From: Caballeronia turbans | GTDB lineage: Bacteria > Pseudomonadota > Gammaproteobacteria > Burkholderiales > Burkholderiaceae | NCBI GenBank assembly: GCA_001544655.2 | Contig: FCOD02000017.1 | Coordinates: forward strand, 62,001-126,000 | DNA: 64,000 bases | Direction of reading: 5' to 3' | In this document: positions 5,671 to 21,593 of the stretch, one piece after another | Position numbering within the stretch: the first letter of the stretch is position 1 | Layout of the letters: each line of letters starts with the position of its first letter | The notes under the pieces: generated by a model | Told to the model about the DNA's origin: nothing | The model's database searches: none | The model's input: the letters and a program-made list of their open reading frames with translations, nothing else | Made by a program: the position numbers and the translations under genes

Positions 5671-5741
5671 CCCCTTATAAATTACCGGCTCCGCGCCGCG
5701 ACCGCGGCCGGGACATGAGCAAGCCGACGACAGGAGACATC

Positions 5742-6605
5742 GTGATCGAATTGAAGGATGTGTCATACGTGCGTCTTGGCACGCGCGATCTTGAAAGCGC
5801 GACCCGTTACGCGACCGAGGTCTTGGGTCTTCAGATTGCACGGCGTGGAGAGAAGAACGTCTATCTGCGCTCGGATGACCGGGACCACACACTGGTGTTC
5901 TCGGAAGGGGATCCGGCTCGACAGGTCAGTGGCTTCGAGGTCCCAACACCTGAAGCGCTCGATCATGCGGCTAAAGTGCTCGACGACGCGCGTATCGCGT
6001 TCACGCGCGGCAGCGCGGCCGAGGCGGAGCAGCGTTGCGTGCGTGACTTCATCAGCTTTGCGGATCCCAGTGGCAACCATATTGATCTGGTGGTGTCGCC
6101 GCATCATCGTGGACAGCGCTACTACGGTACGCGCGACGCGGGTATCACCGGTTTCAGCCATATCGGCCTGTGCACCACGGACGCGAAGCGCGACGAGAAG
6201 TTCTGGACCGAGGTACTCGGCGCCCGCGTGAGCGATCGAATCGGCGATGCAGCCCTGCTGCGCATCGATCCTGTGCATCACAAGGTCGCGCTGTTGCCAT
6301 CGCCGCACGCAGGCGTGCAGCACATTAATCACCAGGTGGAGAGCATCGACGACATCATGCGGGCCTGGTACATCCTGAAGGAGAAGAACATTCGAATTCG
6401 CTTCGGGCCGGGGCGACATCCGACCTCCGGCGCGATGTTCCTGTACTTCGAGGGACCCGACGGCATGGTCTACGAGTATTCGAGCGGCGTTCGCGTGTTC
6501 AGCGAGGAAGAGCATCTCACGCATCTTCCGCGACAGTTCCCGTTCGAGCCAAGTTCCTTCTGCATGTGGGGTTCGAAGCCCGAAGTGCTGGAGTTCGGCT
6601 CATGA
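5742..6605 (+). CDS. extradiol ring-cleavage dioxygenase, type I two-domain
   Basis: A vicinal-oxygen-chelate extradiol dioxygenase. From the chosen GTG at 5742 (AGGAG at 5732-5736) it has 287 residues. Upstream in-frame starts exist at 5715 (ATG) and 5667 (GTG), but the 5742 start gives the family N-terminus, MIELKDVSYVRLGTRDL. The Fe(II) ligands are His140 in FSHIGL, His197 in INHQVE and Glu245 in VYEYSS. The protein should cleave a catechol next to its hydroxyls. The cluster context points to a carboxylated or alkylated catechol such as 2,3-dihydroxy-p-cumate. It overlaps the next gene by four bases, so the two are probably translationally coupled. Confidence 0.88.
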   Translation: MIELKDVSYVRLGTRDLESATRYATEVLGLQIARRGEKNVYLRSDDRDHTLVFSEGDPARQVSGFEVPTPEALDHAAKVLDDARIAFTRGSAAEAEQRCVRDFISFADPSGNHIDLVVSPHHRGQRYYGTRDAGITGFSHIGLCTTDAKRDEKFWTEVLGARVSDRIGDAALLRIDPVHHKVALLPSPHAGVQHINHQVESIDDIMRAWYILKEKNIRIRFGPGRHPTSGAMFLYFEGPDGMVYEYSSGVRVFSEEEHLTHLPRQFPFEPSSFCMWGSKPEVLEFGS

Positions 6606-7297
6606 GCGCGATCGAAGCGTCTCCTGCGCAGCAGGCGACCGTGCGAATGGCGGCACGCGCATTAGGGCGCGCGGGACTGGTCCATGCCTACGGGCACTGC
6701 AGTCTACGTCTGAATCACGACTATCTGCTGGTGTGCGCGCCGATGCCGCCGGGATTAATCCAACGCGAGGCCGGCGTGGTCGTGCCGATCCGCGGCGAAT
6801 TGCCCGATGGCGTGCTGGGCGAAGTCCGGATCCATCAACAAATCTATGCGAGAAGGGATGACGTGGGCGCCGTCGCGCGCAGCATGCCTCCTTCAGTTAT
6901 GAGTCTCTCGACCGCCGGCATCACGCCGGTTCCGCGTCATGGGCCGGGCACCTATTTCGCGCCGTCTGCGCCGCTTTGGGACGACGTGCAGCTGGTTCGC
7001 TCCACGCCGCAGGCCGAAGGCGTGGCCCAAACCCTTGGCCACGCGCGGGCAGTCGTTATGCGCGGCAATGGTGCAGTCGTCGTGGGCGCCACCCTGGAAG
7101 AGGCGGTTGCCTTTACTTGGTTCCTCGAAGATGCTGCGCGGGTTGAATGCGCTGTTCGTGCAATGCGCCTTGAAAACGCGTCCGCGATGAGTGCGGAAGA
7201 CGCGGCGCGACGTGCGACGACAGCGGGACGCGTCATCGAGCGAATGTGGGACTATCTCAGCGCCGGTGACCTCGAGCTCGACAGTTCGCAGCCCTAA
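6602..7297 (+). CDS. class II aldolase/adducin-like protein, CmtD-type decarboxylase candidate
   Basis: A 231-residue member of the class II aldolase fold, starting at an ATG that overlaps the previous stop (ATGA). In p-cumate pathways a protein of this fold decarboxylates the ring-fission product, and its place between extradiol dioxygenase and hydratase fits that role. The general acid-base glutamate of the fold appears as Glu74 (GEVRIHQQIY). By motif alignment all three usual zinc histidines are replaced: the HxH pair by Arg93 and Met95 (ARSMPPS) and the third by Asn156 (MRGNGAV). It may therefore use another mechanism, a different metal site, or be a non-enzymatic partner. Confidence 0.7.
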   Translation: MSAIEASPAQQATVRMAARALGRAGLVHAYGHCSLRLNHDYLLVCAPMPPGLIQREAGVVVPIRGELPDGVLGEVRIHQQIYARRDDVGAVARSMPPSVMSLSTAGITPVPRHGPGTYFAPSAPLWDDVQLVRSTPQAEGVAQTLGHARAVVMRGNGAVVVGATLEEAVAFTWFLEDAARVECAVRAMRLENASAMSAEDAARRATTAGRVIERMWDYLSAGDLELDSSQP

Positions 7298-7322: not shown

Positions 7323-8108
7323 ATGGAGTCGATGCAGATCGGCACGGTTGCGCACGCGCTGTTCGATGCCCTTGAGGGTTGTGAGCCGATCGCGCCGCTC
7401 ACGATGACCGAGCCTGGCATGACCATCCCCGATGCCTACGAGATTCAACGCCGCATGATCGCCACGCGACTCGCGAAGCGAGGCGAGCGCATCGTCGGCA
7501 AGAAGATCGGAATCACGAGCGAAGCCGTAATGAACATGCTCGATGTTCGGCAGCCGGATTTCGGGCAGCTCACCTCGGGCATGCAGTTCGCCAACGGCGC
7601 GACGATTCCGCTGTCGCAATTCATTGCGCCGCGCGCCGAAGGGGAAATTGCGTTTCTGCTGGCAAAGGAGTTGAGTGGGCCGGGGCTCACCGCGCATGAC
7701 GTGCTGGACGCAACCGAGTGGGTCATGCCTTGCTTCGAGATCGTCGACTCGCGCATCCGCGACTGGAAGATCCGCATTCAGGACACGGTCGCCGACAACG
7801 CCTCGTCGGGTGCCTTCGTGATCGGCGAGGGGCGGGCAGATCCGCGCGCTCTCGACCTCGCGGGAATCACGATGAGATTCTCGCGCAACGGCGAAACCGT
7901 CGGCACCGGCCAAGGTTCTGCCGCGCTGGGGCATCCGATCAATGCGGTCGTCTGGCTCGCCAATCAGCTCGGCGAGTTCGGGATGCCGTTGCGTGCGGGC
8001 GAGATCATCTTGTCCGGTGCGCTTTCGGCGATGGTGCCGGCGCGCGCGGGAGACCACATGCGTGTCGAGTTCGACGGTCTGGGTCACGCCGACGTCGCTT
8101 TCGCATGA
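7323..8108 (+). CDS. mhpD: 2-oxopent-4-enoate (2-hydroxypenta-2,4-dienoate) hydratase
   Basis: A 261-residue hydratase of the MhpD/BphH/CmtF family. The start is ATG 7323, with AGGAG about eight bases upstream; the open frame extends further 5' but without a ribosome binding site. Family features include VGKKIGITSEAV and the metal-binding carboxylate cluster in APRAEGEIAFLL. The sequence VDSRIRDWKI, the VADNASS segment and the C-terminal ILSGALSAMVPARAGD are also typical. It adds water to the dienoate released by the hydrolase to make 4-hydroxy-2-oxovalerate. Together with the next two genes it forms the standard lower meta-pathway trio. Confidence 0.93.
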   Translation: MESMQIGTVAHALFDALEGCEPIAPLTMTEPGMTIPDAYEIQRRMIATRLAKRGERIVGKKIGITSEAVMNMLDVRQPDFGQLTSGMQFANGATIPLSQFIAPRAEGEIAFLLAKELSGPGLTAHDVLDATEWVMPCFEIVDSRIRDWKIRIQDTVADNASSGAFVIGEGRADPRALDLAGITMRFSRNGETVGTGQGSAALGHPINAVVWLANQLGEFGMPLRAGEIILSGALSAMVPARAGDHMRVEFDGLGHADVAFA

Positions 8109-8156: not shown

Positions 8157-9149
8157 ATGGATTCGAAAGAGGCAAATAGGCCACTCAAGGCGGCGATCAT
8201 CGGTTCCGGGAACATCGGTACCGATCTGCTGGTGAAGATATTGCGTCATGGGCGAAATGTGGAAGCCGCGATCATGGTCGGAATCGATGCAGCTTCTGAT
8301 GGCCTTGCGAGAGCACGGCGGCTTGGCCTGCAAACTTGCGACAGTGGCGTGGACGGCTTGTTGTCGATGCCGGAGTTTGCCCATATCGACATGGTGTTCG
8401 ATGCCACGTCCGCGGCGGCGCACGTACGCAACGACGCGTTACTGCGCGCTGCAAAACCTGGCATCCGCTTGATCGATCTCACGCCCGCCGCCATTGGACC
8501 GTACTGTGTGCCCGTGGTGAACCTGGACATGCATCGCGACGTCCACAACCTCAACATGGTGACGTGCGGCGGTCAGGCGACCATTCCGGTCGTCGCAGCG
8601 GTGTCGAGCGTCACGCGTGTTCATTACGCGGAGATTGTCGCGTCGATTTCGAGCCGTTCGGCGGGACCTGGAACGCGCGCTAACATCGACGAGTTCACCG
8701 AAACCACGTCGCGTGCGCTGGAAACGGTGGGCGGCGCTGCACGCGGCAAGGCGATCATCGTGCTCAACCCCGCCGAGCCACCCTTGCTCATGCGCGATAC
8801 GGTCTTCACGCTTTCCGAAGACGCTGACGAAAGCGCCGTCGAAACGGCGATCGTGGACATGGTCGAGTCCGTTCGTGCGTACGTGCCCGGCTACCGGCTC
8901 AAGCAACGCGTGCAGTTCGAGCGGATTCCTTCTAGCCGTCCGGTCGAAGTGCCGGGGCTCGGTCTGCGCAGCGGGCTCAAGACCTCGGTATTTCTGGAGG
9001 TGGAAGGCGCGGCCCACTATCTCCCCGCCTACGCGGGCAATCTGGACATTATGACGTCGGCGGCGCTCGCGGCGGCCGAGGCCATCGCGGCGCGGCAGAC
9101 CGCTTCGGGGCAAGGCGCGTTCGACGACACCTTCGCGGGGATCCAATGA
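8157..9149 (+). CDS. mhpF: acetaldehyde dehydrogenase (acylating)
   Basis: A 330-residue CoA-acylating acetaldehyde dehydrogenase (MhpF/BphJ/DmpF). ATG 8157 is preceded by AGAGGAA and gives the usual N-terminus before the NAD-binding [10 protein letters not shown]. The catalytic cysteine is in [11 protein letters not shown]. The C-terminal region is rich in Ala and Glu and ends near the aldolase-docking region seen in the family. It converts acetaldehyde, channelled from the aldolase, to acetyl-CoA with NAD and CoA. It overlaps the aldolase gene by four bases, as is common for this obligate two-enzyme complex. Confidence 0.95.
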
Positions 9150-10177
9150 AGCAGAAGCTCTATATCTCGGATGTCACATTGCGCGACGGCGCGCACGCGA
9201 TTAGACATCGCTACAGCCTGGATCAGGTGCGGCGCATCGCGCGCGCGCTCGACGAAGCACGCGTCGATTCGATTGAGGTGGCTCACGGCGACGGCCTGCA
9301 AGGCTCGTCCTTCAACTATGGCTTCGGCGCGCACACCGATGCCGAATGGATCGCCGCTGTCGCCGAAGTCGTCCAACATGCGCGTGTGGCGACCCTGCTG
9401 CTTCCAGGGATCGGCACTGTGCATGATTTACGCGAGGCCTACGATGCGGGTGCGCGCGTGGTGCGCGTCGCCACGCATTGCACGGAGGCGGACGTGTCGA
9501 AACAGCATATCGAGGCGGCGCGCAACCTCGGCATGGATACGGTCGGTTTTCTGATGATGAGCCACATGGCGTCGCCGCAGGTACTCGCGGAGCAGGCGCG
9601 CCTGATGGAAGGCTACGGGGCAACCTGCGTCTACGTCGTGGATTCTGGCGGCGCACTGACGATGAACGACACGCGCGATCGCGTTCGCGCGCTCAAGGAC
9701 GCGCTGCACGCCAATACCGAAACCGGCATCCACGCGCATCACAACCTGAGCCTCGGTGTCGCGAACTCGATCGTGGCCGTCGAGGAGGGATGCAACCGGG
9801 TCGATGCCAGTCTCGCGGGGATGGGTGCTGGCGCGGGCAACGCGCCGCTCGAAGTCTTCATCGCAGCGGCGAACCGGCTGGGCTGGCTGCATGACTGTGA
9901 CCTGTATCAACTGATGGATGCCGCCGACGACATCGTGCGGCCTTTGCAGGAGCGGCCGGTGCGCGTGGATCGAGAGACCCTAGCGCTCGGTTACGCAGGC
10001 GTCTATTCGAGCTTCCTGCGGCACGCGGAACGCGCGGCGCAACACTACGGCCTCAAGACGGTGGACATTCTCGTCGAGTTGGGCCGGCGCCGCATGGTCG
10101 GTGGTCAGGAGGACATGATCGTCGATGCAGCGCTCGATCTGCTGTCGAAGTCCGCCGTCGACGCGAGCACACATTAA
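9146..10177 (+). CDS. mhpE: 4-hydroxy-2-oxovalerate aldolase
   Basis: A 343-residue aldolase of the DmpG/BphI/MhpE family (HMG-CoA lyase-like TIM barrel). It begins with the hallmark [16 protein letters not shown], where the DxH motif supplies metal and catalytic residues. The HxH metal motif lies in [15 protein letters not shown]. The C-terminal region is the communication domain that docks the acylating dehydrogenase. It cleaves 4-hydroxy-2-oxovalerate to pyruvate and acetaldehyde. The ATG overlaps the stop of the dehydrogenase gene, so the partner proteins are probably translated in a coupled way. Confidence 0.95.
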
Positions 10178-10206: not shown

Positions 10207-11568
10207 ATGGAACAAGGATGTACGCATTTCGAGGGCGGCAGTGCCGGAAGCCCCGTGCGTTTCGTGTGTAACGCGCAATCGGTCGATGCCGCGACGCTGC
10301 GCCAACTGGTGCAGCCCGGTCGCGTTCACTCGGCCGTCTATACCTCGCCCGATATCTTCGAGGCGGAAATCGAGCGCATCTTTCATGGTTCGTGGCTCTA
10401 CGTGGGTCACGCCAGCGAAGTGCCGCAGAAAGGCGACTATCGGGTACGCCGTCTCGGACGCCAGCCGGTCATCATGGTGCGCGGTCATGACGACGTCGTA
10501 CGTGTGCTGATGAACCGCTGTCGGCATCGCGGCGCGGCAGTGTGTGAGCAGGAAGCGGGACGCGAAAAGTTTTTTCGCTGCTGGTTCCACGGCTGGACCT
10601 ACGACAATACCGGCAAGCTCATCAATGTGACGGACCCGGCCGGCTATGGCGACGACTTCCGCATGGAAGAGTATTCGCTTACCAGCGCGCCGCGCGTCGA
10701 GATTTATCGGGACTTCGTGTTCGCGTCGCTGTCGCCTAAGGTCGGCTCGCTTGCGGAGTATCTCGGCCCTGCTGCGCAGATGATCGACCTGTTGGTCGAC
10801 GCGTCACCGACGCGCCGTATCAAGCTGTCGGCGGGCGTCCACAAGACTGTCTACAACGGCAACTGGAAGATGGTCGGCATGGACGGGTATCACCCGCATT
10901 ACGTGCACGCGTCGGTCGTGTCGATGTGGCAGCGTCAGGCGGACAGCGGCATCGGCGCCACGCATCGTGCCGACCCGTTCGACGGCAAGGCGAAAACCTA
11001 CACGCGCGATCTGGGGCACGGCCACGCCATGCTCGACATGCGCGAACACCGCGTCGAGCACTACGCCGACTATGAAACGTACCTCAAGGGCGTACAGGGC
11101 GGTGCGGAATATATCGAAGCGCTTGCAGCGCGCGACGGTGCCGAGCAATCGAAGCTGCTTGTTGCGATCGCCGGCGATCCGCATATCGGCGTGTTTCCGA
11201 ACATGCAGATCATCAATAACCAGGTGCGCATCATGGTGCCGTTGGAACCGGGACGCACCGAGGTGCTGATGTTCCCCGTGCTGTTCGACGGCGTGGACGA
11301 CGCCATCAACACAATGCGCCTGCGGCAGCACGAGTCCTTCTACGGCCCGGCGGGCGCAGGCTCGCCTGACGACGCTGAAATCTTCGAGCGGGCGCAGCGC
11401 GGGATGAACGCGCAGGTCAATCCGTGGATCGACATTTCCCGCGGCATGACTCGCGAGCAGGCCCATCCCGACGGAACCATCACCGGGCACATCTCGGATG
11501 AAGTACCGCAACGCGGCCAGATGCGCTACTGGCTGGAACTCATGACCGAGGGAGCCGAACTTGAATAA
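10207..11568 (+). CDS. aromatic ring-hydroxylating dioxygenase, alpha subunit
   Basis: A 453-residue large subunit of a Rieske non-heme iron dioxygenase, with CGGAGG just before its ATG. The Rieske [2Fe-2S] motif is CRHRGAAVC and then CWFHGW (CxH...CxxH). The mononuclear iron site is in MDGYHPHYVH, with the bridging Asp and the two His in the D-x2-H-x4-H pattern. It should dihydroxylate an aromatic acid to a cis-dihydrodiol, working with the beta subunit, ferredoxin and reductase encoded downstream. The genes around it resemble a p-cumate 2,3-dioxygenase system, although the true substrate is open. Confidence 0.93.
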   Translation: MEQGCTHFEGGSAGSPVRFVCNAQSVDAATLRQLVQPGRVHSAVYTSPDIFEAEIERIFHGSWLYVGHASEVPQKGDYRVRRLGRQPVIMVRGHDDVVRVLMNRCRHRGAAVCEQEAGREKFFRCWFHGWTYDNTGKLINVTDPAGYGDDFRMEEYSLTSAPRVEIYRDFVFASLSPKVGSLAEYLGPAAQMIDLLVDASPTRRIKLSAGVHKTVYNGNWKMVGMDGYHPHYVHASVVSMWQRQADSGIGATHRADPFDGKAKTYTRDLGHGHAMLDMREHRVEHYADYETYLKGVQGGAEYIEALAARDGAEQSKLLVAIAGDPHIGVFPNMQIINNQVRIMVPLEPGRTEVLMFPVLFDGVDDAINTMRLRQHESFYGPAGAGSPDDAEIFERAQRGMNAQVNPWIDISRGMTREQAHPDGTITGHISDEVPQRGQMRYWLELMTEGAELE

Positions 11569-12076
11569 CGCCGTTCATCCTCAATGGCTGTCGTCGGAGG
11601 CGGGTGTTTCGCCGATCGAGCAGGCTTCGCAGTTCCTCTATCACGAGGCCGCCTTGATGGACGCGCACCGCTTTGATGAGTGGCTCGCACTGTGGCACGC
11701 AGACGGCTTCTATTGGGTCCCGTGCAATACCGAAGATCTCGAACCGGACAAATCGATCTCGCTCATCTACGAAAGCCGACGGCAGCTCGACGATCGCGTC
11801 TATCGGCTCAAGGGCCGTCATGCTCACGCGCAGAGTCCGCGTTCGAGGTTGCTGCGCGTCGTGTCGAACGTGACCATCGAAAGCGCGAGCAAGGAGGCGT
11901 TGATCGTGCATTCAAACTTCGTGCTCGGCGAGGTACGCAGCGATCGTCAGGAGACCCTGTTCGGACGCTGCCGCCATGTGTTGGCACTCGACGAAGGCGC
12001 GATGCTGATTCGCGAGAAAAAGGTCTTTCTGCTGAACAACGACACGCCGATGAGCAACCTCACGTTCCTGATTTGA
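11561..12076 (+). CDS. aromatic ring-hydroxylating dioxygenase, beta subunit
   Basis: A 171-residue small subunit (scytalone-dehydratase/NTF2-like fold) of the Rieske dioxygenase. The family pattern AxQFLYHEAALMDAHRFDEWLALW is recognisable, as is the later RLLRVVSNVTIE segment. It starts at TTG 11561, eight bases inside the alpha gene, with GAGGGAG upstream. No ATG lies in this frame near the start. The subunit is structural, forming the alpha3beta3 oligomer, and has no cofactor. Its overlap with the alpha gene indicates coupled translation. Confidence 0.92.
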   Translation: MNNAVHPQWLSSEAGVSPIEQASQFLYHEAALMDAHRFDEWLALWHADGFYWVPCNTEDLEPDKSISLIYESRRQLDDRVYRLKGRHAHAQSPRSRLLRVVSNVTIESASKEALIVHSNFVLGEVRSDRQETLFGRCRHVLALDEGAMLIREKKVFLLNNDTPMSNLTFLI

Positions 12077-12083: not shown

Positions 12084-12440
12084 ATGGACGCACACGCGAT
12101 GGAAAGTGGAACATCGACCGATGCAAGCGAATTGACGCCGCTCTGCCAGCTCGACGACGTGACAGATGGCGACGGTCTTCAGATAAAGATCGGCGAGAGG
12201 ATGCTCGCGGTATGGCGTGTGGACGATCTCGCCTTCGTCACGGACGACACCTGCACGCATGGCGATGCATCACTCGTACTGACCGGCATGCTCGACGGTT
12301 TCTCGATCGTTTGCGGCCTGCATCAAGGCGAGTTCGATATTCGCACGGGCGAAGTCCGCGCGGCACCGTGCAGCAAACCGATACGCAGTTACGCGGCCAC
12401 GGTGCGCGAGGGCGTTGTGCTCGCGCGACTCGCCGAATGA
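12084..12440 (+). CDS. Rieske-type ferredoxin of the dioxygenase
   Basis: A 118-residue Rieske ferredoxin. The cluster ligands are in CTHGDASL and VCGLHQGEF (CxH and CxxH, 17 residues between), with a Gly-rich tail typical of BphF/CmtAd proteins. It should shuttle electrons from the reductase at 13477 to the alpha subunit. The first 20 residues are a little longer than usual, and a later start is possible but lacks an alternative ATG. It sits 7 bases after the beta-subunit gene in the same operon. Confidence 0.92.
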   Translation: MDAHAMESGTSTDASELTPLCQLDDVTDGDGLQIKIGERMLAVWRVDDLAFVTDDTCTHGDASLVLTGMLDGFSIVCGLHQGEFDIRTGEVRAAPCSKPIRSYAATVREGVVLARLAE

Positions 12441-12462: not shown

Positions 12463-13464
12463 ATGAACGAGACGACAACGTCTGGGACTTCGCTGCCGAT
12501 AATCGCGGTGATGGTCGGCGACCCGGCAGGTATCGGTCCGGAGGTGGCGGTCAAGGCAGCGGTGGACGCGTCGGTGCGCGCGGTGTGTCGGCCGATGCTG
12601 ATCGGCGATATCGGGTCGATCAGGGCTGCCGCGCGAGCGGTGCCTCTTGGCGACGAAACGGAAGTAATTCAGTCGTTCGAGGCGCGCGCCTTCGCGTCGG
12701 GGCGCATCGTCGTGCTGGATCCGCTCGATCTTGCGCCGCACGAGTATGCAACGGGCCAGCCTTCCGCCGCGGCGGGGCGAGCCGTCGTCCGCTGGATGAC
12801 GCTCGCCGACCGGATCGCGCATAACGGACTGATCGGCGGATGGATCATGGGGCCAGTCGATTCGATGTCGCTCAAGCTCGCGGGCGAAGTTGCGAGCATC
12901 GACGATCTCCAGCCCGACCATACCTTCATGTTTCGCATGAGCGGCAAACTGCGCGTGGTGCCACTGACGGAGCACATCCCGCTGCGCGACGTGCCCGCCA
13001 CGGTGACTTTCGATGCGGTATTGAACCTGGTCACGCTGGTGAATGAGCGTCTGAAGAACTGGGGAATCGAGACGCCGCGCATCGCGGTTGCGGGACTCAA
13101 TCCGCACGCCATGTTTGAGGAGGAGGAGCGGATCATCGGCCCTGCGGTCGAACAGGCCAGAGCGCAGGGCATCGATGTGCGGGGTCCTGTTTCGCCCGAC
13201 TCCGTATTTCGCCACGGACTCGACGGGCGCTATGACGTGGTTGTCAGCATGTATCACGATCAAGGGCAGATCGCGCTCAAGTCGGCGGCTTTCGAAGGGG
13301 CGTGCACGCTCTATCTGGGGGTTCCTTATGTGCGCGCGACCGTCCCTCATGGGACCGCCATGGATATCGCGGGAAAGAATCTGGCGCAGCATCGCAGCAT
13401 GGCCGCGGCATTGAGGACTGCGGCGGCGCTCGCCGCTAAGCGTGGCTTCCTCAACGAACAATGA
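12463..13464 (+). CDS. PdxA-family dehydrogenase, probable cis-dihydrodiol dehydrogenase
   Basis: A 333-residue member of the PdxA (4-hydroxythreonine-4-phosphate dehydrogenase) family. It begins with the typical MVGDPAGIGPEV and has the metal-binding histidines in DHTFMFRM, VSMYHDQGQ and the C-terminal PHGTAMDIAGK. In aromatic clusters, PdxA paralogues such as TphB dehydrogenate, and often decarboxylate, cis-diol carboxylic acids. Its position between dioxygenase genes supports that use here rather than vitamin B6 synthesis. Known p-cumate operons, as I recall, use an SDR enzyme for this step, so this is a variant arrangement. Confidence 0.85.
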   Translation: MNETTTSGTSLPIIAVMVGDPAGIGPEVAVKAAVDASVRAVCRPMLIGDIGSIRAAARAVPLGDETEVIQSFEARAFASGRIVVLDPLDLAPHEYATGQPSAAAGRAVVRWMTLADRIAHNGLIGGWIMGPVDSMSLKLAGEVASIDDLQPDHTFMFRMSGKLRVVPLTEHIPLRDVPATVTFDAVLNLVTLVNERLKNWGIETPRIAVAGLNPHAMFEEEERIIGPAVEQARAQGIDVRGPVSPDSVFRHGLDGRYDVVVSMYHDQGQIALKSAAFEGACTLYLGVPYVRATVPHGTAMDIAGKNLAQHRSMAAALRTAAALAAKRGFLNEQ

Positions 13465-13476: not shown

Positions 13477-14772
13477 ATGACGAACCACCAAACCGATCCG
13501 CTGTACTCGCGCGTGGTGATCGTCGGAGCGGGGCAAGCCGCTGCGGCGGTCGCTAGGACACTGCGTGCGGAAGGACATCAGGGCGGGATCATCATGCTAG
13601 GCGAGGAGCGCGTAGGGCCGTACGAGCGGCCACCCTTGTCAAAAGCATGGCTGAGCGCCGAGAACGTGCCGGAAGTTGCGGCTCTGCTTGATCGGTCGCA
13701 ACCGGAGCAGTTTGACGTCGATTTACGCACCGGTACGCACGTGACCCGCATCGACCGTCCGTCGCGTACCGTGCACGTCGACGATGGAACGCAGATTCAC
13801 TTCGATCGCCTCGTGATCGCAACCGGGGGCCGCGCGCGGCGGCTCGCGGTGCCTGGCGACGCGAGTGACGATATCGCCTATCTGCGCACCATCGACGACG
13901 CTTTGCATATCCGCCGCGGGTTGATAGCAGGCAAGCGGCTGCTGGTGATCGGAGGTGGATGGATCGGACTCGAAACCGCATGTAGCGCCCGAAAGCTCGG
14001 CGTCGACGTGGTCCTGGTCGAAGCGGCGCAGCGGTTATGCGAACGGACCGTGCCGTCGATCGTGGGTCAGCATCTGCTCGAGATTCAGCGCTCGCTTGGC
14101 GTCGACGTGCGCCTGGGTGCCGGCATCGAGCAACTGTCGAAGCTGCCCGGCGAACGTTATGCCGCTTCGCTATCGGGCGTTCGCGAGGAATTCGACCTCG
14201 TGGTCGCGGGCGTGGGCATGGAAGCGAACGATGAACTCGCGGCTGAAGCAGGCCTCCCTTGCGCGGGCGGCGTGCTGTGCGACGTCGAAGGCCGCACGGT
14301 CGATCCATATGTCTTCGCGTGCGGGGATGTGGCGTCGTTCGAGCATCCGTTCGGACCGGTCGGAATGCGGCGCCTGGAATCGTGGGACAACGCGGAGCAA
14401 CAGGGCGCGGCATGTGCCAGGGCCATCCTCGGCAAGCAGGCGGTGGCGCATTCGCTGCCCTGGTTCTGGTCCGATCAGGGCGACGTGAATGTGCAGATCC
14501 TCGGGTTCCCGAATGCGACCGCCACACCGGTCGTGCGAGAAGGCGACGGCAAGGTGACGCTGGTCTGGCTGGAGGAGTGCGCAACCGACGAACCCGCGCG
14601 AATTGTCGCGGCGGTCTGCATCAACGCTGCGGCAGACATGCCGGTACTGCGCCGCATATGGCAGAAAGGCGTGCGTGTCGATCGAGAGACGCTCGCCGCG
14701 AAGGACGTAAGTCTCAAAAGCCTTCTGCAGCGGACGGTCGGCGGGGCAAAGAATGGAGGTGCGAATAATTAG
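13477..14772 (+). CDS. FAD-dependent ferredoxin reductase of the dioxygenase
   Basis: A 431-residue NAD(P)H:ferredoxin reductase of the glutathione-reductase-like (BphG/CmtAa/TodA) class. The FAD-binding motif is VIVGAGQAAAAVARTL near the N-terminus, then the ERPPLSKAWL segment. The NADH-binding motif is VIGGGWIGLETA near residue 155, and the second FAD motif VFACGDVA lies near residue 280. It should feed electrons from NADH to the Rieske ferredoxin. It is slightly longer than the usual 400-410 residues because of its C-terminus. It closes the enzymatic part of the operon. Confidence 0.93.
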   Translation: MTNHQTDPLYSRVVIVGAGQAAAAVARTLRAEGHQGGIIMLGEERVGPYERPPLSKAWLSAENVPEVAALLDRSQPEQFDVDLRTGTHVTRIDRPSRTVHVDDGTQIHFDRLVIATGGRARRLAVPGDASDDIAYLRTIDDALHIRRGLIAGKRLLVIGGGWIGLETACSARKLGVDVVLVEAAQRLCERTVPSIVGQHLLEIQRSLGVDVRLGAGIEQLSKLPGERYAASLSGVREEFDLVVAGVGMEANDELAAEAGLPCAGGVLCDVEGRTVDPYVFACGDVASFEHPFGPVGMRRLESWDNAEQQGAACARAILGKQAVAHSLPWFWSDQGDVNVQILGFPNATATPVVREGDGKVTLVWLEECATDEPARIVAAVCINAAADMPVLRRIWQKGVRVDRETLAAKDVSLKSLLQRTVGGAKNGGANN

Positions 14773-14876
14773 AGGCGCCTGAGGCATCGGGCTTTTGCAT
14801 TTACATCGACAGAGCACATCAGAGCGTGGTGGTACCGGGGTCCGGCTGACCGTCCATGCCGAAAAAGGAGACAGGC

Positions 14877-16226
14877 GTGAAAGCTTTTGAAACCTCGCAG
14901 GAGTGGCACGACGCAGTCGCGAGCACGGGATCAGCTCCCGGCGCGAGCGCAACGGAATCGGGATCACGACGACTATTCTTTGCCAGCTTTCTCGGCACGA
15001 TGGTCGAGTGGTACGACTTTTTTCTCTACGGCTTCATCGCGCCGCTCGTCTTCGAAGAGTTGTTCTTCCCAAAGTTGAACGCGCTCAGCGGCACTATTGC
15101 CGTGTACGCGACGTTCGCCGTCGGCTATGCGAGTCGGCCTCTCGGCGGACTTGTGTTCGGTCACTTCGGCGACAAGATCGGCCGCAAGTCGATGATGCTG
15201 GTAACCCTGCTGATGATGGGTATCGGTACGGCGGCCATCGGGCTCTTGCCAAGCGTCGCGCAAATCGGCATGACCGCGACCTGTCTGCTCGTCGCGCTGC
15301 GTTTCGTCCAGGGCTTTGCACTCGGGGGTGAGTCGGCGGCTGCCAGCCTGATGGTGCTGGAGAGCGCGCAGCAGCGTCGCCGGGGCCTGCTGGGGGCAGC
15401 GCTTCAGGCGGCAGGACCGCTGGGCGTGCTGCTGGCCTCGCTCGCGGTATTCGTCGTATCGCGTCTGCCGCACGAAGCCTTGCTTGCCTGGGGCTGGCGG
15501 GTGCCGTTCCTGGTGAGCGCCGTACTGGTGGTAATCGGCCTGTATATTCGTCTGCGAGTCGAGGAAACAGTCGCGTTCCGCAAGCAGCAGAGTCAGCACG
15601 ACCTCACCCGCATCCCGGCGTGGGAGACCTTGCGCAGCTACAAGTGGCCTGTTTTCGTCGTGCTCGTGGTCAGCATCATGGAGAGCACGTTCTACTATCT
15701 GACGGGCGTCTATTCTATCTCGTACGTTACGAAGACGCTCCATATGCCCGGCTCCGTCGCGATCGGCGCGATCGCCTGCGCGAACGCTTTCGCCCTGGTA
15801 TCGGTACCGCTCTACGGCGCGCTGTCGGACCGCCTCGGGCGCAAGGGCGTGTATTTGCTGGGCATCGTGGCGTCGGCGATCTACCTGAACTTCTTCTTTA
15901 CGATGCTCGACGGCCGCTCGCCAATGGTCGTAGTGCTGACGGTCGTGGCCGCCGTCGGCGTGATTCATGCACCGATGTACGCCATGTTCGGCAGCTTCTA
16001 CGGCGAACTGTTTCCCACGCGAGTGCGCTTCACCGGCTTCTCGATGGGCAAGGCGTTCGGCACGGTGCTCGGCGGCGGAGTCGCGCCTATGATCGCGGCC
16101 TCGCTCGCGGCGCGCAATCACGGCGACCCCTCCGGTATCGGTCTCTACTATCTGTGCCTCGCCTTCGTCGCGCTGTGTGTGGTGCTGCGCGTGCGCGAAA
16201 CGCGGCACGACGACATCACCGTCTAG
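14877..16226 (+). CDS. MHS-family MFS transporter for an aromatic acid
   Basis: A 449-residue major facilitator protein with about 12 membrane segments. The start is GTG 14877 with AAGGAG at 14865-14870; an in-frame ATG at 14856 lacks a site. The metabolite:H+ symporter subfamily signature GTMVEWYDFFLYGF follows a 35-residue cytoplasmic N-terminus, and FGHFGDKIGRKSMM is the loop 2-3 motif. It likely imports the aromatic acid degraded by this operon across the inner membrane. A 104-base gap with a strong hairpin separates it from the porin gene. Confidence 0.9.
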   Translation: MKAFETSQEWHDAVASTGSAPGASATESGSRRLFFASFLGTMVEWYDFFLYGFIAPLVFEELFFPKLNALSGTIAVYATFAVGYASRPLGGLVFGHFGDKIGRKSMMLVTLLMMGIGTAAIGLLPSVAQIGMTATCLLVALRFVQGFALGGESAAASLMVLESAQQRRRGLLGAALQAAGPLGVLLASLAVFVVSRLPHEALLAWGWRVPFLVSAVLVVIGLYIRLRVEETVAFRKQQSQHDLTRIPAWETLRSYKWPVFVVLVVSIMESTFYYLTGVYSISYVTKTLHMPGSVAIGAIACANAFALVSVPLYGALSDRLGRKGVYLLGIVASAIYLNFFFTMLDGRSPMVVVLTVVAAVGVIHAPMYAMFGSFYGELFPTRVRFTGFSMGKAFGTVLGGGVAPMIAASLAARNHGDPSGIGLYYLCLAFVALCVVLRVRETRHDDITV

Positions 16227-16330: not shown

Positions 16331-17455
16331 ATGAAGAAGAACAGGCTTCTCCTCGGCATGCTCGCGCTCGGCGCCGGCGCCGCACACGCGGACAGCAGCG
16401 TGACGCTCTACGGCCTCATCGGTACAGGCCCCGCGTATGTGAACAACGTAAAGGGCAGTCATTTGTTCGAATCCGCAAGCGGCCTCATTCAGGGTAATCG
16501 TTTCGGTCTGAAGGGGCGCGAAGATCTTGGCGGAGGCATGTCGGCCATCTTCACCTTGGAGAATGGCTTTGACGGCAACACTGGCGCGCTGGGGCAAGGC
16601 GGGCGCATGTTCGGACGGCAGGCGTTCGTGGGTCTTGCGACCAGACAATACGGGACACTGACCCTGGGTCGCCAGTACGACACCAATTACGATTTCATGG
16701 CCGATACGGGCGCGGCCAAACTCTTCGGTGGCAATGGCGCGCATGTATCAGATAATGACAACCTGTTCGGCACCGTGCGCTTCCAGAACTCAGTCAAGTA
16801 CACGAGCCCGAGCTGGGGCGGCTTTAGCTTCGCTGCCATGTACGCGATGAGCAACGCTGCCGGCGACTTCGCAAATAATCGCGCCTACAGCGCGACGGCG
16901 GCATACCGCAACGGCAGTCTGAAGCTTGCGGTCGGCTATCTGCAGATGAACCATCCGAATGCGGCTGACAATCCCAACGGCGCCGCCGGCAGCGATTATC
17001 CCGCACCGTTCAGTCTGTTCAAGACCAGCGCACTGGGCCCGCGAACCGCGCTCGTGGACGAGCAGCAGGTGATCGCCGCGACGGCGTCGTATGCCATCGG
17101 GCCGACGCAGGACAATCTCGTGTACTCGCACGCCAAATACCGCTATTTCGACGGTAGCCATCTACGGCTCGACAATGCTGAATTGAACGGTACCTGGCAC
17201 ATCACGCCGGATTTTTACACCGGCCTGGGCTACATGTTCACTTTCGGTCGCTATGAGGAACTGAATCAGTCACCGAAGTGGCATCAGGTCGATCTGGGCA
17301 TCGACTATCTGCTATCGAAGCGCACTGACCTGTATGCCTTCGCGATCTATCAACGTGCGGTCGGTTCGGCCAGCAACGCTGCCATCTTCTTCATGCAGCC
17401 GTCGAGCACGAAGTCCCAGGTGGAAGTGTCGTTCGGTATTCGACACCTGTTCTGA
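16331..17455 (+). CDS. Gram-negative trimeric porin
   Basis: A 374-residue porin of the Burkholderia/Bordetella OmpC-like family. It begins with a signal peptide (MKKNRLLLGMLALGAGAAHA) followed by SSVTLYGLI, the standard first strand. Internal motifs GNRFGLKGREDLGGGM and FGRQAFVGL, and the C-terminal FGIRHLF with terminal Phe, are all typical of outer-membrane beta-barrels. The frame runs open for 237 codons upstream, but ATG 16331 is where the signal peptide begins. No strong ribosome binding site is visible. It probably lets the aromatic substrate through the outer membrane. Confidence 0.93.
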   Translation: MKKNRLLLGMLALGAGAAHADSSVTLYGLIGTGPAYVNNVKGSHLFESASGLIQGNRFGLKGREDLGGGMSAIFTLENGFDGNTGALGQGGRMFGRQAFVGLATRQYGTLTLGRQYDTNYDFMADTGAAKLFGGNGAHVSDNDNLFGTVRFQNSVKYTSPSWGGFSFAAMYAMSNAAGDFANNRAYSATAAYRNGSLKLAVGYLQMNHPNAADNPNGAAGSDYPAPFSLFKTSALGPRTALVDEQQVIAATASYAIGPTQDNLVYSHAKYRYFDGSHLRLDNAELNGTWHITPDFYTGLGYMFTFGRYEELNQSPKWHQVDLGIDYLLSKRTDLYAFAIYQRAVGSASNAAIFFMQPSSTKSQVEVSFGIRHLF

Positions 17456-17475: not shown

Positions 17476-18825
17476 TCACTTGCCTTTGGCAGCAGATGAG
17501 CCGATGAACTGCGCACGCGGACGGAGAACGCTTCCATACATGCGTTGTTCCTGCACATGGGCGAGCCATCCGGCCACGCGCGCGAGCGCGGAAATCGCGC
17601 CGCTCGTGCGTCGCGGCAGACCTATGGCGCGCGTGAGCACCACGGTTCCAAGCTCCTGACGCGGAAGTAAGCCGTGCTCCTTCGCTATTTGATCGACGAA
17701 CTGATAGATCGCGTTCATTTGGCGGCTGTTGTCGCTCCGTCGGCGTGCGAGATCGAGCATGTAGCGGGCTCGCGGATCGCCCCTGGGATAGATTGGATGC
17801 CCGAAACCGGGAACCGCGACGCCGCGTTCAAGCAGTGTATTGGCGCGGCGCATCAATGCCTGCATCGTGCTAGCGCTGTCAAAGAATTCCTCGACGCGGT
17901 CGTACAACTGGCCGGTCAGCGAACCAGTGCTCGCAGCGATGCCGGATACGACACAACGTTGCAGCGTGCAGCCCGTCGATGCCGACACGCGGGCGGCGAC
18001 CGTCGCGGGCGAGAGTTCGTGATCGGCGAGCAGGATCAGCAAAGCTTCCATCGACTCGCGATTAATTTCGGTCGATTCGACGGCAAGCGAGGACAGGATG
18101 CCCTGTGCCACCGACTGACCGGTCTCCATCGACTTGAAGTGGCTGCGTGGCGACATCAGTCCGCAACATCCGACCAGCATCTGGATGATATCGATCCCGG
18201 CGGACGCCATGTCGAGGTCGGCCGGCTCGGCCGTCGCCGTCCTTCCACGGCGCTGTGACGGCTGCATGCCGAGGTGCAGCGTAACGATGGAGAAAACGTC
18301 GAGCAAATTGCCGGGCTGCATGCGCCACGATGCTTCAATGAGCGCGTTCAGTTCATGCCATGGTTTGCGCTTCGGCCATTCGAGTTCGACGTTAGTGTCG
18401 TTGAGCATTCCGGTCCATAGCAACTGCGCGACGGCCTCGAATGGAAGGCGTGCACGCGCAAGGTCGGTCGCGAGCCTGCCTCGATAGCGTGGTCCGTCAG
18501 GCGTGATCTCGGTCACCGAGGTTGGGATGATCGGCTCGCCAAAATTCATAGCGGATGCCGCGACCGCGCCGTGCCCATGCCGCGCGAGCGAACGCGATTC
18601 GAGACGCCTGAGGTCATCGCGCCAGTAGAGGCGGCCCTTGTGTCCCGCTTGTCCGATGCTGCGGATCAAACCGCGGCTCACGTAGGCATACAGCGTCTGT
18701 TGCCGGACGTTCAGGATCTTCATTGCTTCGGCAGCGGTCACGTAGTCCGTGTGGTCGGAGTTCGCCGCCGCGTGTTCGTCTTTAGTTGCCCGCCGTGCGG
18801 GACCGTTCGTGATGACGTCGGACAT
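17476..18825 (-). CDS. helix-turn-helix/citrate-synthase fusion, candidate metabolite-sensing regulator
   Basis: A 449-residue protein with an N-terminal MerR/excisionase-like DNA-binding domain (about 28-75: YVTAAEAMKILNVRQQTLYA and YWRDDLRRLE) fused to a citrate synthase fold (about 95-445). Family landmarks are LADHELSPATVAARV (His269), VPGFGHPIYPRGDPRA (His343) and ARVAGWLAHVQEQ. By alignment to E. coli GltA, catalytic His264 of the GPxHGG motif is Thr304 (GSLTGQ), and catalytic Asp362 is Glu391 (RQELGTV). Catalysis is therefore doubtful. The gene is divergent from the thiamine-enzyme gene, with a 28-bp inverted repeat between them that recurs at the meta-cleavage operon promoter. I infer that it is the regulon's regulator, sensing an acyl-CoA or oxoacid. 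Confidence 0.85.
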   Translation of the reverse strand: MSDVITNGPARRATKDEHAAANSDHTDYVTAAEAMKILNVRQQTLYAYVSRGLIRSIGQAGHKGRLYWRDDLRRLESRSLARHGHGAVAASAMNFGEPIIPTSVTEITPDGPRYRGRLATDLARARLPFEAVAQLLWTGMLNDTNVELEWPKRKPWHELNALIEASWRMQPGNLLDVFSIVTLHLGMQPSQRRGRTATAEPADLDMASAGIDIIQMLVGCCGLMSPRSHFKSMETGQSVAQGILSSLAVESTEINRESMEALLILLADHELSPATVAARVSASTGCTLQRCVVSGIAASTGSLTGQLYDRVEEFFDSASTMQALMRRANTLLERGVAVPGFGHPIYPRGDPRARYMLDLARRRSDNSRQMNAIYQFVDQIAKEHGLLPRQELGTVVLTRAIGLPRRTSGAISALARVAGWLAHVQEQRMYGSVLRPRAQFIGSSAAKGK

Positions 18826-18911
18826 GTTGATTGGCTGTCGATATTGATCAATAGAACTCTACGGCGAAGCCGTCGTCGTGTCCATCAGTTCGGTGGGATC
18901 GCGCATCGCGC

Positions 18912-18939
18912 GTTGATCTAACAATCAATCTTGATCAAC
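18912..18939. promoter_or_regulatory. 28-bp inverted-repeat operator, site 2
   Basis: GTTGATC (18912-18918) and GATCAAC (18933-18939) with a 14-base spacer repeat the architecture of 4741-4768. It lies in the 207-base region between the divergent genes at 18825 and 19033. As at site 1, a TTGATC that could serve as a -35 box sits in the right arm (18931-18936), with TACCGT 17 bases further on as a poor -10 box towards the thiamine enzyme. A further palindromic ATTGATCAAT occurs at 18843-18852. Confidence 0.7.
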
Positions 18940-19032
18940 GGAACTGAAAACCTTACCGTTGGCTCCGCATGGGGCCCGCGATCCATCCTTGGCGTCGGCC
19001 ACAACAACAGAGACTGATCAGGAGGAGGCACC

Positions 19033-20967
19033 ATGACGGCTCGAAGAACCTTCCTCAAGGAAGCGATCGCCGCCGGAGCATCTACCGCGCTCTTAAAGCC
19101 GAATGCAGGCGTAGCGCAGCCTGTCAACAAGGCGCCGTCGGTCGCTAAGCCCGGCGCGCGTCTGATTGCCGCCGAGACGCAGGTGCCGTCGCTTCAGGAA
19201 GCGCCTTCAGCAGACGCGGCACACATCGGCAATCCGGGCTCCGACTTCATGGTGGATCTGCTGCGCATGGCGGGCATCGACTATGTCGCCGCCATGCCGG
19301 GCTCCACGTTTCGCGGCATCCATGAGTCGATCGTGAGTTATGCGGGAGACCAGCACCCGGCGCTCGTCGTCTGCACGCACGAAGAGGCGTCGGCGGCGAT
19401 CGCGCATGGCTATGCGAAGGTCGCAGGCAAGCCGATGGCCTGTCTCGTCCACAGCACCGTGGGGCTTCAGCACGCCTCGATGGCGATCTTCAACGCCTGG
19501 TGCGACCGCGTGCCGATGATCGTCATCGCGGGAAACATCGCGGATGCGACGAAGCGCCGTCCCGGCGTCGAGTGGTATCACACCGCGCTGGATCTTGGCG
19601 CGCTGGTGCGCGACTTCACCAAGTACGACGACGCGCCTGTGTCGCTTCAGCACTATGCGGAGTCGTTCGTCCGCGCTTACACGCTTTCGATGACGCCGCC
19701 GATGGAGCCGGTGCTTCTTGTCGCGGACGGCGAGCTGCAGGAGCGCCCGATCGAGAACCCGAGGGAGATTTCGGTGCCGCCGTTTCGTCCGGTCTCGCCG
19801 CCCGTTGCGGGCCGAGCTGCGCTGGAAGAGACCGCACGCATGCTTTGCGGCGCGACGAATCCGGTCATCGTCGCGGACCGCGCGATCCGTTCGCAGGCTG
19901 GCATGGATGCGTTGGTGGCGCTTGCGGAAGCGGTGAACGCGCCGGTCGTCGACCTGCTCGGACGGCTGAATTTCCCGACCGGGCATTTCCTAAATCAAAC
20001 CTATCTCAAGACCCAATTGATATCGCGCGCCGATGTCATCCTTGCCCTCGAAGTATCGGATCTTTGGGGGTTGACGGGAACGGTAGCGGACGTCATCGGG
20101 CGACCGACCAAAAAGTTTACGAAACCCGATGTCGATCTCGTGAGTGTGTCGACGTCCTATCTCTATTCGAAGTCGAACATGCAGGACGCGGAGCGGTTCA
20201 TCGCGCCCACGCTTGCAATCGGCGGAGATGCGCAGGCCTCGCTCGGGCCGTTGCTCGAAGCGGTGAACGCGGTGTGCACGGCTCCCCAGCGTGAGACGAT
20301 GAGAAAGCGTGCACCCGCACTGCGTCAGGCTCATACGCTGATGCGCGAGACCGCGCGACACGACGCGACGCGCGCCTGGGATGCGAGTCCGATCAGCACG
20401 GCAAGACTCTCGCAAGAAGTCTGGAACGTGATCCGACATGAAAATTGGGCGCTGGTGTCGTCGTCGTTGTTCATCAGCCAGTGGCCGCAGCGGTTGTGGG
20501 ATTTCGACAAGACCTGGCAGTACATCGGCGGCGAAGGCGGCTATGGCGTCGGTTACGGCGCGCCGGCCGCAGTTGGCGCGGCGATCGCGCATCGGGATGC
20601 GGGACGCATTCCGGTCAATATTCAGACCGACGGCGATCTAATGGTGCTGCCCGGTGTGTTGTGGACCGCTGCGCATCACAAGATTCCCCTGCTCACCGTG
20701 ATGCATAACAACCGCGCCTACCACCAGGAATCGATGCACATTCAGCGCATGGCTAACTGGCGCGACCGAAAACCTGAAAACGGCACGGCGGGCACGCTCA
20801 TCAACGATCCGCCGATCGACTATGCCGGGCTCGCCAGAAGCATGGGCATGTGGGCCGAGGGACCGATCTCGAACCCGGCCGATCTCGGACCGGCTCTCGC
20901 GCGCGCGATGCAGCGAGTGAAGGCGGGCGAACCGGCCTTTCTCGACGTCCTCACGCAACCTCGCTAG
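19033..20967 (+). CDS. Tat-signal thiamine-diphosphate-dependent enzyme, periplasmic candidate
   Basis: A 644-residue protein with the three-domain plan of acetolactate synthase and benzoylformate decarboxylase enzymes. The first residues (MTARRTFLKEAIAAGASTALL) form a twin-arginine signal with a possible cleavage site near AGVA-QP, which would send the folded enzyme to the periplasm. The N-terminal domain has the catalytic glutamate in CTHEEASAAIAHGYA (Glu117 or 118). The cofactor motif GDG-x24-NN appears as T532-D533-G534 and N559-N560, so the first Gly is Thr. GGAGGAGG precedes the ATG. The next gene encodes a diheme cytochrome c, suggesting oxidative decarboxylation of a 2-oxoacid with electrons passed to it. 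The substrate is unknown. Confidence 0.8.
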   Translation: MTARRTFLKEAIAAGASTALLKPNAGVAQPVNKAPSVAKPGARLIAAETQVPSLQEAPSADAAHIGNPGSDFMVDLLRMAGIDYVAAMPGSTFRGIHESIVSYAGDQHPALVVCTHEEASAAIAHGYAKVAGKPMACLVHSTVGLQHASMAIFNAWCDRVPMIVIAGNIADATKRRPGVEWYHTALDLGALVRDFTKYDDAPVSLQHYAESFVRAYTLSMTPPMEPVLLVADGELQERPIENPREISVPPFRPVSPPVAGRAALEETARMLCGATNPVIVADRAIRSQAGMDALVALAEAVNAPVVDLLGRLNFPTGHFLNQTYLKTQLISRADVILALEVSDLWGLTGTVADVIGRPTKKFTKPDVDLVSVSTSYLYSKSNMQDAERFIAPTLAIGGDAQASLGPLLEAVNAVCTAPQRETMRKRAPALRQAHTLMRETARHDATRAWDASPISTARLSQEVWNVIRHENWALVSSSLFISQWPQRLWDFDKTWQYIGGEGGYGVGYGAPAAVGAAIAHRDAGRIPVNIQTDGDLMVLPGVLWTAAHHKIPLLTVMHNNRAYHQESMHIQRMANWRDRKPENGTAGTLINDPPIDYAGLARSMGMWAEGPISNPADLGPALARAMQRVKAGEPAFLDVLTQPR

Positions 20968-20975
20968 GAGCGCAC

Positions 20976-21593
20976 ATGAAGCCGATACGCATGATCGCGC
21001 TGGCCGTAAGTGCGCTTGCCTGCTTGATCGATATGACCTCGCCGCCTGCGATGGCTGTACAGGCGGACGTTCATGCCGGACAGGGGCTGTACATGAAAAA
21101 GGGCTGTTACGAATGCCATGGTCCCGTGGGGCAGGGCAGCATCATGTCCGGGCCCGCCCTCGCACCGTCCCCGTTGCCGGTAGAGGCGATGACGGCCTAC
21201 GTCCGCTCGCCGAAGGGGCAAATGCCTCTCTACAGCAGCAAAATCCTGTCTGATCGCGATCTGGCGCAGATTCAAGCGTATCTCGCGGCGGTTCCGGCGT
21301 CACCGGACGCGGACAGTATTGCACTGCTCGGCGGAGCCTCTACGGCATCGTCGTCTAAAGACGACTCCGAACGCGGACAGCAGGTATATGTCGCACGATG
21401 CGCGTCCTGTCATGGCGCATCGGGAGGCGGTGCGGTCGGGCCGTCGCTCGTCGATGTCGCGAAACGTCGTGGTGTGTCGGGCATCGAGTCATTCGTGCGC
21501 AATCCGTCAGGTGCCATGCCAAAGCTTTTCCCGGAAGTTCTGACCGAGTCGGATGTTCAGGCCGTCGCCCAATACGTAGCGAGGCTCAGGTAG
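20976..21593 (+). CDS. diheme cytochrome c
   Basis: A 205-residue exported protein with a signal peptide (about residues 1-28) and two class I cytochrome c domains. Heme sites are C44-YE-C47-H48 and C142-AS-C145-H146. Likely Met axial ligands lie in KGQMPLY (Met83) and SGAMPKLF. ATG 20976 follows TAGGAG, which includes the stop of the thiamine enzyme, so the two genes are tightly coupled (8-base gap). It should accept electrons in the periplasm, most simply from that enzyme, and pass them to a terminal oxidase. A decayed stretch resembling its 3' end is found at 31291-31341. Confidence 0.92.
   Translation: MKPIRMIALAVSALACLIDMTSPPAMAVQADVHAGQGLYMKKGCYECHGPVGQGSIMSGPALAPSPLPVEAMTAYVRSPKGQMPLYSSKILSDRDLAQIQAYLAAVPASPDADSIALLGGASTASSSKDDSERGQQVYVARCASCHGASGGGAVGPSLVDVAKRRGVSGIESFVRNPSGAMPKLFPEVLTESDVQAVAQYVARLR

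Follow-up and report, generated by a model that had tools for sequence, protein, structure and literature searches.

A gene within a 64,000-nucleotide stretch of the genome of the soil bacterium Caballeronia turbans (contig FCOD02000017.1; hereafter the window) joins a helix-turn-helix (HTH) DNA-binding domain to a citrate-synthase (CS) domain that has lost two catalytic residues. Comparison with related sequences suggests that this HTH-CS protein is very probably a one-component transcription regulator with the dead, pseudo-citrate-synthase domain as its sensor. The overall explanation, which takes in the protein, its operator, its sensor and its predicted targets, we consider probable. An earlier note on this DNA had placed the fusion at 17476..18939. 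The open reading frame proves to occupy 17476-18825, and the remainder is intergenic DNA with two operator-like sites; the fusion of a DNA-binding domain to a citrate-synthase fold is borne out by Pfam. The features of the gene, whose 449-residue product we call P0001, are as follows.

17476..18825, minus strand: HTH-pseudo-citrate-synthase gene, the proposed regulator; ATG start, 449 residues (open reading frame call and Pfam)
18604..18744, minus strand: HTH_17 domain, residues 28-74 (Pfam, 29.0 bits against a cut-off of 27)
17515..18531, minus strand: Citrate_synt domain (PF00285), residues 99-437 (Pfam, 168.5 bits, E 2.8e-49)
17914..17916, minus strand: codon of Thr304, at the position of the catalytic His of GPxHGG (alignment)
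17653..17655, minus strand: codon of Glu391, at the position of the catalytic Asp (alignment)

HTH_17 scores above its cut-off, which gives P0001 the DNA-binding domain of a one-component regulator, and the citrate-synthase profile is clearly matched. Citrate synthases are also its top solved-structure matches by sequence (6s6f, E 2.2e-22). The NCBIfam citrate synthase models match P0001 far below their curated cut-offs, the best being TIGR01800 at 124 against 421.3 bits. The nearest named relatives are in Caballeronia cordobensis (99%), on a Caballeronia zhejiangensis plasmid (92.5%) and in Burkholderia peredens (89%). The ratio of nonsynonymous to synonymous substitution rates (dN/dS) is 0.11, 0.10 and 0.09 for these three orthologues, respectively, indicating purifying selection and a maintained gene; the comparison with a further relative (L037) was saturated. 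Besides P0001, the C. turbans genome itself (7.35 Mb, 120 contigs) encodes a single further full-length PF00285 protein and two fragments of 21 residues. These fragments (L003 and L004) are citrate synthase ends lying at contig ends, and perhaps represent a further synthase split by assembly.

Alignment confirms the reading of the active site in the earlier note: Thr304 occupies the place of the GPxHGG His and Glu391 that of the catalytic Asp, and His269 (the His of DHE) and His343 (the His of GFGH) are retained. Arg352, Arg416 and Arg435 are retained as well. In pig citrate synthase we take the equivalents to be H238 for His269, H274 for Thr304, H320 for His343 and D375 for Glu391, and R329, R401 and R421 for Arg352, Arg416 and Arg435. 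The five retained residues presumably bind oxaloacetate, and the lost His/Asp pair is presumably the one that activates acetyl-CoA. Loss of this pair suggests that turnover is gone, and the kept arginines suggest that a carboxylate ligand is still bound. With the oxaloacetate His and Arg residues kept and the acetyl-CoA-activating pair lost, the effector is more likely to be a 2-oxo or carboxylic acid than an acyl-CoA.

We then compared the same positions across HTH-anchored proteins, labelled by residue as "live" when the GPxHGG His and the Asp are both present and as "dead" otherwise. Among 51 non-redundant dead proteins, P0001 included, the GPxHGG His occurs in none (0/51) and the Asp in none (0/51). 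Because the label is made from these two residues, the results are that both, never one, are lost, and that the label is confined to one clade. The His is replaced in 51/51 by Thr, Ile, Val, Leu, Ser, Gln or Met, and the Asp by Glu (18), Ala (28), Ser (3) or Phe (2), so that 33 of the 51 have neither Asp nor Glu there. Retention elsewhere in the site is high: Arg352 in 51/51, Arg416 in 50/51, Arg435 in 50 with one gap, and His343 in 48/51. All 32 live HTH-CS proteins have the GPxHGG His and the Asp, together with His343 and the three arginines. At least 95% conservation in the live group is found at 44 positions, of which seven fall below 20% in the dead group, both catalytic residues among them, while the three arginines stay at or above 95%. 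In the HTH_17 domain, the TLYAYVSRG stretch is nearly invariant across the dead and live relatives (83 proteins).

In a maximum-likelihood tree of 111 proteins, the dead group forms a single branch with support of 100, the live group has support of 97, and the two together are set apart from plain citrate synthases with support of 99. The tree was built by a quick method with the Shimodaira-Hasegawa-like approximate likelihood ratio test (SH-aLRT) as its only support measure and a midpoint root, and several long branches were flagged. With the dead label on one clade, the most economical account is that the active site was lost once. Of 398 genomes sampled from the family, 51 carry P0001-like genes (at least 209 bits), C. 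turbans included; the residue check and the neighbourhoods cover part of these. In a class sample (369 genomes, E 1e-45) matches occur only in C. turbans and one other genome (G049). In a phylum sample (398 genomes, E 1e-35) 11 genomes matched: these two and nine weaker ones from one genus, seven of which stay in the non-redundant set with an intact triad. Dead-clade-strength matches to P0001 are thus confined to Burkholderiales in the samples taken. L008 and L068 contain one and two in-frame stops, respectively, in the search listings, and open frames alone were used. The genome search for the same fusion and its neighbours, which the earlier note had suggested as a check, yielded 51 dead relatives and a sister group of 32 live HTH-CS proteins.

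Side-by-side reading of the upstream regions revealed three half-sites in common, TTGAT-N5-7-ATCAA-N2-TTGAT. We scored this operator as matches out of 15 with gaps of 5 to 7, and counted a site at 13/15 or better. Such a site is present at 39 of the 51 dead loci, made up of the window (15/15) and 38 of the 47 that were anchored, and at 29 of 32 live loci, the exceptions among the latter being L055, L056 and L066. None of the control stretches contains it (0/47 and 0/48 for dead, 0/32 and 0/32 for live loci; 0/159 in all, with one duplicate dead row). These predicted sites, against none in the controls, would constitute the conserved operator of a one-component regulator. The loci are related, so the counts are not independent events. 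Among 31 further live loci (32 listed, L058 unanchored), 27 have the operator at 13 or better, and equal-length downstream and further-upstream stretches have none (0/31 and 0/31). Two of these loci, L013 and L096, coincide with L144 and L143, respectively, which had already been viewed when the motif was drawn; 25 of the 29 previously unseen loci have the operator, many of them from two genera and hence not independent. A further set of dead loci has it at 28/34 and overlaps loci viewed earlier, so it is no held-out test; its downstream control reaches 12/15 in 4/34 and 13 in none. The variable-gap score took the place of a gapless 27-column position weight matrix trained on 16 dead-clade loci, which was overfitted, could not follow half-site spacings of 5 to 7, and for these reasons missed the majority of held-out loci. 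At one locus (L105, contig G100:C91) two dead HTH-citrate synthases are encoded some 7 kb from each other, and no operator lies upstream of the second.

In the window, the motif and promoter-like sequences are placed as follows. ThDP stands for thiamine diphosphate.

18913..18935, plus strand: operator site 1, TTGAT-N6-ATCAA-N2-TTGAT, 15/15, oriented to the ThDP gene (motif scan; within the dyad of the earlier note)
18827..18848, plus strand: operator-like site 2, gap 5, 13/15, just 5' of the regulator ATG (motif scan)
4742..4764, plus strand: operator site 3, gap 6, 14/15, 70 bp before the GTG at 4834 (motif scan)
18931..18959, plus strand: promoter-like TTGATC-17-TACCGT over the third half-site of site 1 (weak consensus match; missed by the promoter scan)
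4760..4788, plus strand: promoter-like TTGATC-17-TATAGT over the third half-site of site 3 (consensus match only)

Site 1 is upstream of both the ThDP gene (by 98 bp) and the regulator (by 88 bp). It is contained in the operator-like dyad that had been proposed between the divergent genes, which is indeed present, with arms at 18911-18918 and 18933-18940, 8/8 paired and 30 bp overall; the site at 4742 and the large operon behind it had been missed. Site 2 may mediate autoregulation. With one mismatch allowed, a scan of the 7.35-Mb genome for the gap-6 form gave just two sites, 1 and 3, both intergenic and before operon starts, and the reversed control gives 0. The interpretation offered in the earlier note is partly upheld: that an enzyme-dead citrate synthase exerts transcriptional control is well supported at the sequence level, by one clade with both residues lost, a conserved operator and two sites in the genome, each before genes of this cluster.

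The same gap-6 pattern gives 39 hits in 27 of 58 Caballeronia genomes, against 4 for the reversed control. In G207 both sites are present at the same spacing; of its further hits, one is within a gene and one is intergenic. G223 lacks site 1 as well as a ThDP pair next to the regulator; it keeps the operon site, has a better site 2 (14/15), and has its other hit inside a gene. Next to the G223 regulator (L177, 10376-11228), a flavin-reductase-like gene, identified in the orthologous L036, takes the place of the ThDP/cytochrome pair. In G235 the site precedes dioxygenase genes. Of the four G232 hits, one precedes a ThDP/aldehyde dehydrogenase operon and another a regulator of HTH-CS type; the third is inside a gene and the fourth is unexplained. 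A gap-6 operator-like site in G232 (L174, 15108-15130) lies roughly 219 bp away from the gene of a methyl-accepting chemotaxis protein, and the next forward gene is at a distance of 1.5 kb.

Where a site is present, it is oriented away from the regulator, to its neighbour, in 37 of the 39 dead loci and 25 of the 29 live ones. When the third half-site is read as a -35 box, TAnnnT follows at a spacer of 17 in 32/37 dead and 8/25 live sites; counts for every other spacing between 14 and 20 range from 0 to 6, and many of these sequences are related. The regulator is therefore probably placed on and just upstream of the -35 box. A MerR-type promoter mechanism was set aside: MerR operators lie inside a -35/-10 spacer of 19-20 bp, whereas here the best spacer among the consensus promoter matches is 17 and the site both overlaps -35 and extends upstream of it.

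We propose that the N-terminal HTH would bind the three-half-site operator TTGAT-N6-ATCAA-N2-TTGAT, overlapping the -35 box of the target, while the C-terminal citrate-synthase domain, making no citrate, would act as the sensor. The former oxaloacetate pocket probably takes up a small 2-oxo or carboxylic acid from the aromatic pathway. Citrate synthases are known as dimers with an open-to-closed domain movement, and such a movement of the fold could alter DNA binding. The predicted targets are the operon at 4834-17455, the divergent ThDP/cytochrome c pair and the regulator's own gene. As to mode, repression lifted by ligand is somewhat favoured over activation; it fits the fairly good promoter-like match at 4760-4788, and activation from about -46 is the alternative.

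The regulator is divergent from a catabolic gene pair, as the earlier note had stated, and the 13 same-strand genes from 4834 to 17455 appear to form one operon for dioxygenation, meta-cleavage and transport in the breakdown of aromatic compounds. The genes are listed below, MFS denoting the major facilitator superfamily and Tat twin-arginine translocation.

4834..5670, plus strand: alpha/beta hydrolase, BphD/HsaD-like, first gene of the proposed target operon; GTG start
5715..6605, plus strand: extradiol-type dioxygenase
6602..7297, plus strand: class II aldolase/adducin family protein
7323..8108, plus strand: 2-oxopent-4-enoate hydratase-like
8157..9149, plus strand: acetaldehyde dehydrogenase (acetylating)
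9146..10177, plus strand: 4-hydroxy-2-oxovalerate aldolase
10207..11568, plus strand: ring-hydroxylating dioxygenase alpha subunit
11561..12076, plus strand: ring-hydroxylating dioxygenase beta subunit
12084..12440, plus strand: Rieske-type ferredoxin (position and C. zhejiangensis annotation)
12463..13464, plus strand: PdxA-family dehydrogenase
13477..14772, plus strand: ferredoxin reductase (Pyr_redox_2)
14856..16226, plus strand: MFS transporter
16331..17455, plus strand: porin, last gene of the proposed operon
19033..20967, plus strand: ThDP-dependent enzyme with Tat-like N-terminus MTARRTFLKEAIAAGAS, divergent target (profile and sequence)
20976..21593, plus strand: c-type cytochrome, second gene of the divergent pair, with a signal-like start (profile and position)

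An exported ThDP enzyme feeding a cytochrome (19033-21593) would be unusual. The window also contains LysR genes at 3318-4265 and 21752-22654. At 23744-27102 it holds another set of ring-hydroxylating dioxygenase genes with a gentisate 1,2-dioxygenase-like gene behind it, and the window scan gave no operator of the HTH-CS type ahead of this set.

C. zhejiangensis has the same arrangement as the window. Elsewhere, the dead gene adjoins Rieske dioxygenases, ferredoxins, ThDP enzymes, cupin and DHDPS-family genes, MFS and class II aldolase genes, or a TctC protein. In 41 loci, near-identical orthologues included, the closest gene predicted upstream is read from the opposite strand 34 times, or 35 times with the annotation of L092, which was called co-directional and is annotated as divergent; 6 of the 41 are co-directional. 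In some loci (L112 and L114) the opposite-strand neighbour is more than 1.5 kb away. Gene calls misplaced some genes (L092 and L117), and annotated plasmid records were used where available; L094 is unannotated, many neighbour genes were left unnamed, and two loci in which no citrate-synthase gene was found (L109 and L127) were left out of the counts.

Several observations weigh against the regulator explanation. An AlphaFold model of P0001 from a five-sequence alignment reached a predicted local distance difference test score (pLDDT) of only 39.8 and a predicted template modelling score (pTM) of 0.28, and no structural claim is drawn from it. Glu at the Asp position accompanies an intact GPxHGG His in 11 of 28 plain citrate synthases, so Glu391 alone is no evidence of inactivity. 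The term enzyme-dead had been drawn from both residues; the Thr304 part stands, while the change from Asp to Glu is weaker evidence than had been assumed, and Thr304 is the telling change. The His269 position holds His in 24 dead proteins, Asn in 26 and Phe in 1, and this loss in 27 of the 51 weakens the oxaloacetate-pocket argument clade-wide, though P0001 keeps the residue. Neighbouring operons differ widely across the clade and some neighbours are non-catabolic (a transposase in L112, SelB in L106 and a glycosyl hydrolase in L114), which makes a single ligand class uncertain.

The operator evidence has weak points of the same bearing. The 12 dead loci without a site are L037, L043, L044, L068, L070, L085, L091, L107, L010, the unanchored L093 and L135 (best scores 11 and 10) and the second copy of L105, and several of the 12 are co-directional. 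With 60 dinucleotide shuffles per locus, at least one shuffle reached 13/15 in 7 of 65 loci. Site 2 is weak at 13/15, and the scan of the C. turbans genome covered, of the three gaps from 5 to 7, the gap-6 form alone. A single gap-6 hit is not specific, because 26 of the 39 Caballeronia hits fall outside the five genomes discussed; of 13 inspected, 12 lie inside predicted genes, and one of these 12 (in G220) has no mismatch. What counts for the specificity of a site is its position before the genes of the cluster.

Some of these observations would also suit a bifunctional trigger enzyme, in which the citrate-synthase domain performs an altered Claisen or aldol reaction, Thr304 and Glu391 take part in a different chemistry, and the HTH contributes regulation. 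Plain synthases with Glu for the catalytic Asp, the retention of Glu391 in P0001 and near relatives, the kept substrate-binding arginines, and an operator shared with live HTH-CS relatives that have the full triad are all in keeping with this. We nevertheless judge it unlikely: the replacement of the GPxHGG His by seven kinds of residue in 51/51 proteins, 33 of which have neither Asp nor Glu, argues by its variety against a new shared catalytic residue, and the neighbouring operons share no single reaction. A metabolic role, in which P0001 partners and modulates an active citrate synthase and the HTH is a protein-interaction remnant, seems very improbable. Pseudoenzyme partners are known in other systems, and live HTH-CS genes adjoin a second citrate synthase in Agrobacterium C58 and at L096-L104. 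Among 41 dead loci, however, no second citrate synthase was flagged nearby (match to P0001, E 1e-12) except the dead HTH-CS of L105; moreover, the operator is conserved alongside the gene and does not occur in the controls, and the HTH core is nearly invariant.

The operator could instead belong to another regulator, for instance the LysR product of 3318 or 21752, with the HTH-CS gene merely one more target. LysR genes do lie in the window, yet the motif follows the HTH-CS gene through divergent neighbourhoods and into a distant family of the phylum (29/32 live loci), and no other regulator recurs at every locus among the named neighbours, many being left unnamed; we give this account very little credence. 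The one-component regulator with a pseudo-citrate-synthase sensor is the explanation we retain. We lean, with reserve, toward a broader form of it, a new one-component family in which a live HTH-CS gave rise once to a dead Burkholderiales clade that spread to many catabolic operons, with the arginines reading a 2-oxo acid of the pathway and the operator grammar, three half-sites of which the last also serves as -35, unchanged through the passage from enzyme to regulator.

One-component regulators derived from enzyme domains include MocR (HTH with an aminotransferase fold) and ROK (HTH with a sugar-kinase fold); they share this build with P0001, whereas their folds and ligands are unrelated. 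The citrate synthase II/2-methylcitrate synthase group (TIGR01800, NF009005; 6s6f, 1vgm, 2p2w) shares the whole fold and the oxaloacetate-binding His and Arg residues. P0001 differs from TIGR01800 in falling far below the cut-off, in the loss of the catalytic His and in its N-terminal HTH. The intact HTH-citrate synthases, named "citrate synthase family protein" (e.g. Agrobacterium C58 ATU_RS25370), have the same architecture, HTH core and operator type but keep the His and Asp in 32/32, both absent from the P0001 clade, and some of them stand beside a second citrate synthase. In Agrobacterium C58 (L095, 4800-7176) and at L096-L104, this second synthase has Glu for the catalytic Asp. The operator upstream scores 15/15 in each of L096-L104 and 14 in L095, and these may be self-regulating citrate synthase pairs.

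In the open-licence PubMed Central (PMC) literature we recognized no HTH-citrate-synthase regulator among the matches listed. The excerpt of PMC7324645 has a table row naming sco5831, and the excerpt of PMC6449761 has 0 occurrences of "citrate". A literature search on a Mycobacterium CitA yielded nothing, and that enzyme forms no part of the evidence. The closest precedent for the mode of action of P0001 is BzdR/BoxR of Azoarcus, in which, according to the excerpted text, an HTH-XRE is joined to an inactive shikimate-kinase domain in a regulator of aromatic catabolism, with a proposed path from enzyme to fusion to loss of activity (PMC3602430). The predicted control of aromatic catabolism by P0001 and its proposed path from enzyme to fusion to loss of activity resemble these. 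P0001 is no member of the BzdR family: its C-terminal domain is by Pfam a citrate synthase, not a shikimate kinase, and its HTH is HTH_17 rather than XRE. The BzdR path was rebuilt with synthetic chimeras, as the same excerpt has it (PMC3602430), whereas intact and dead HTH-CS fusions coexist with the same operator type. Plain citrate synthase, intact HTH-CS and HTH-pseudo-CS would thus form a natural series from enzyme to regulator, with a shared operator testable at each stage. A predicted regulator, sites and regulon would be assigned to genes publicly named "citrate synthase", an annotation that is probably wrong for them.

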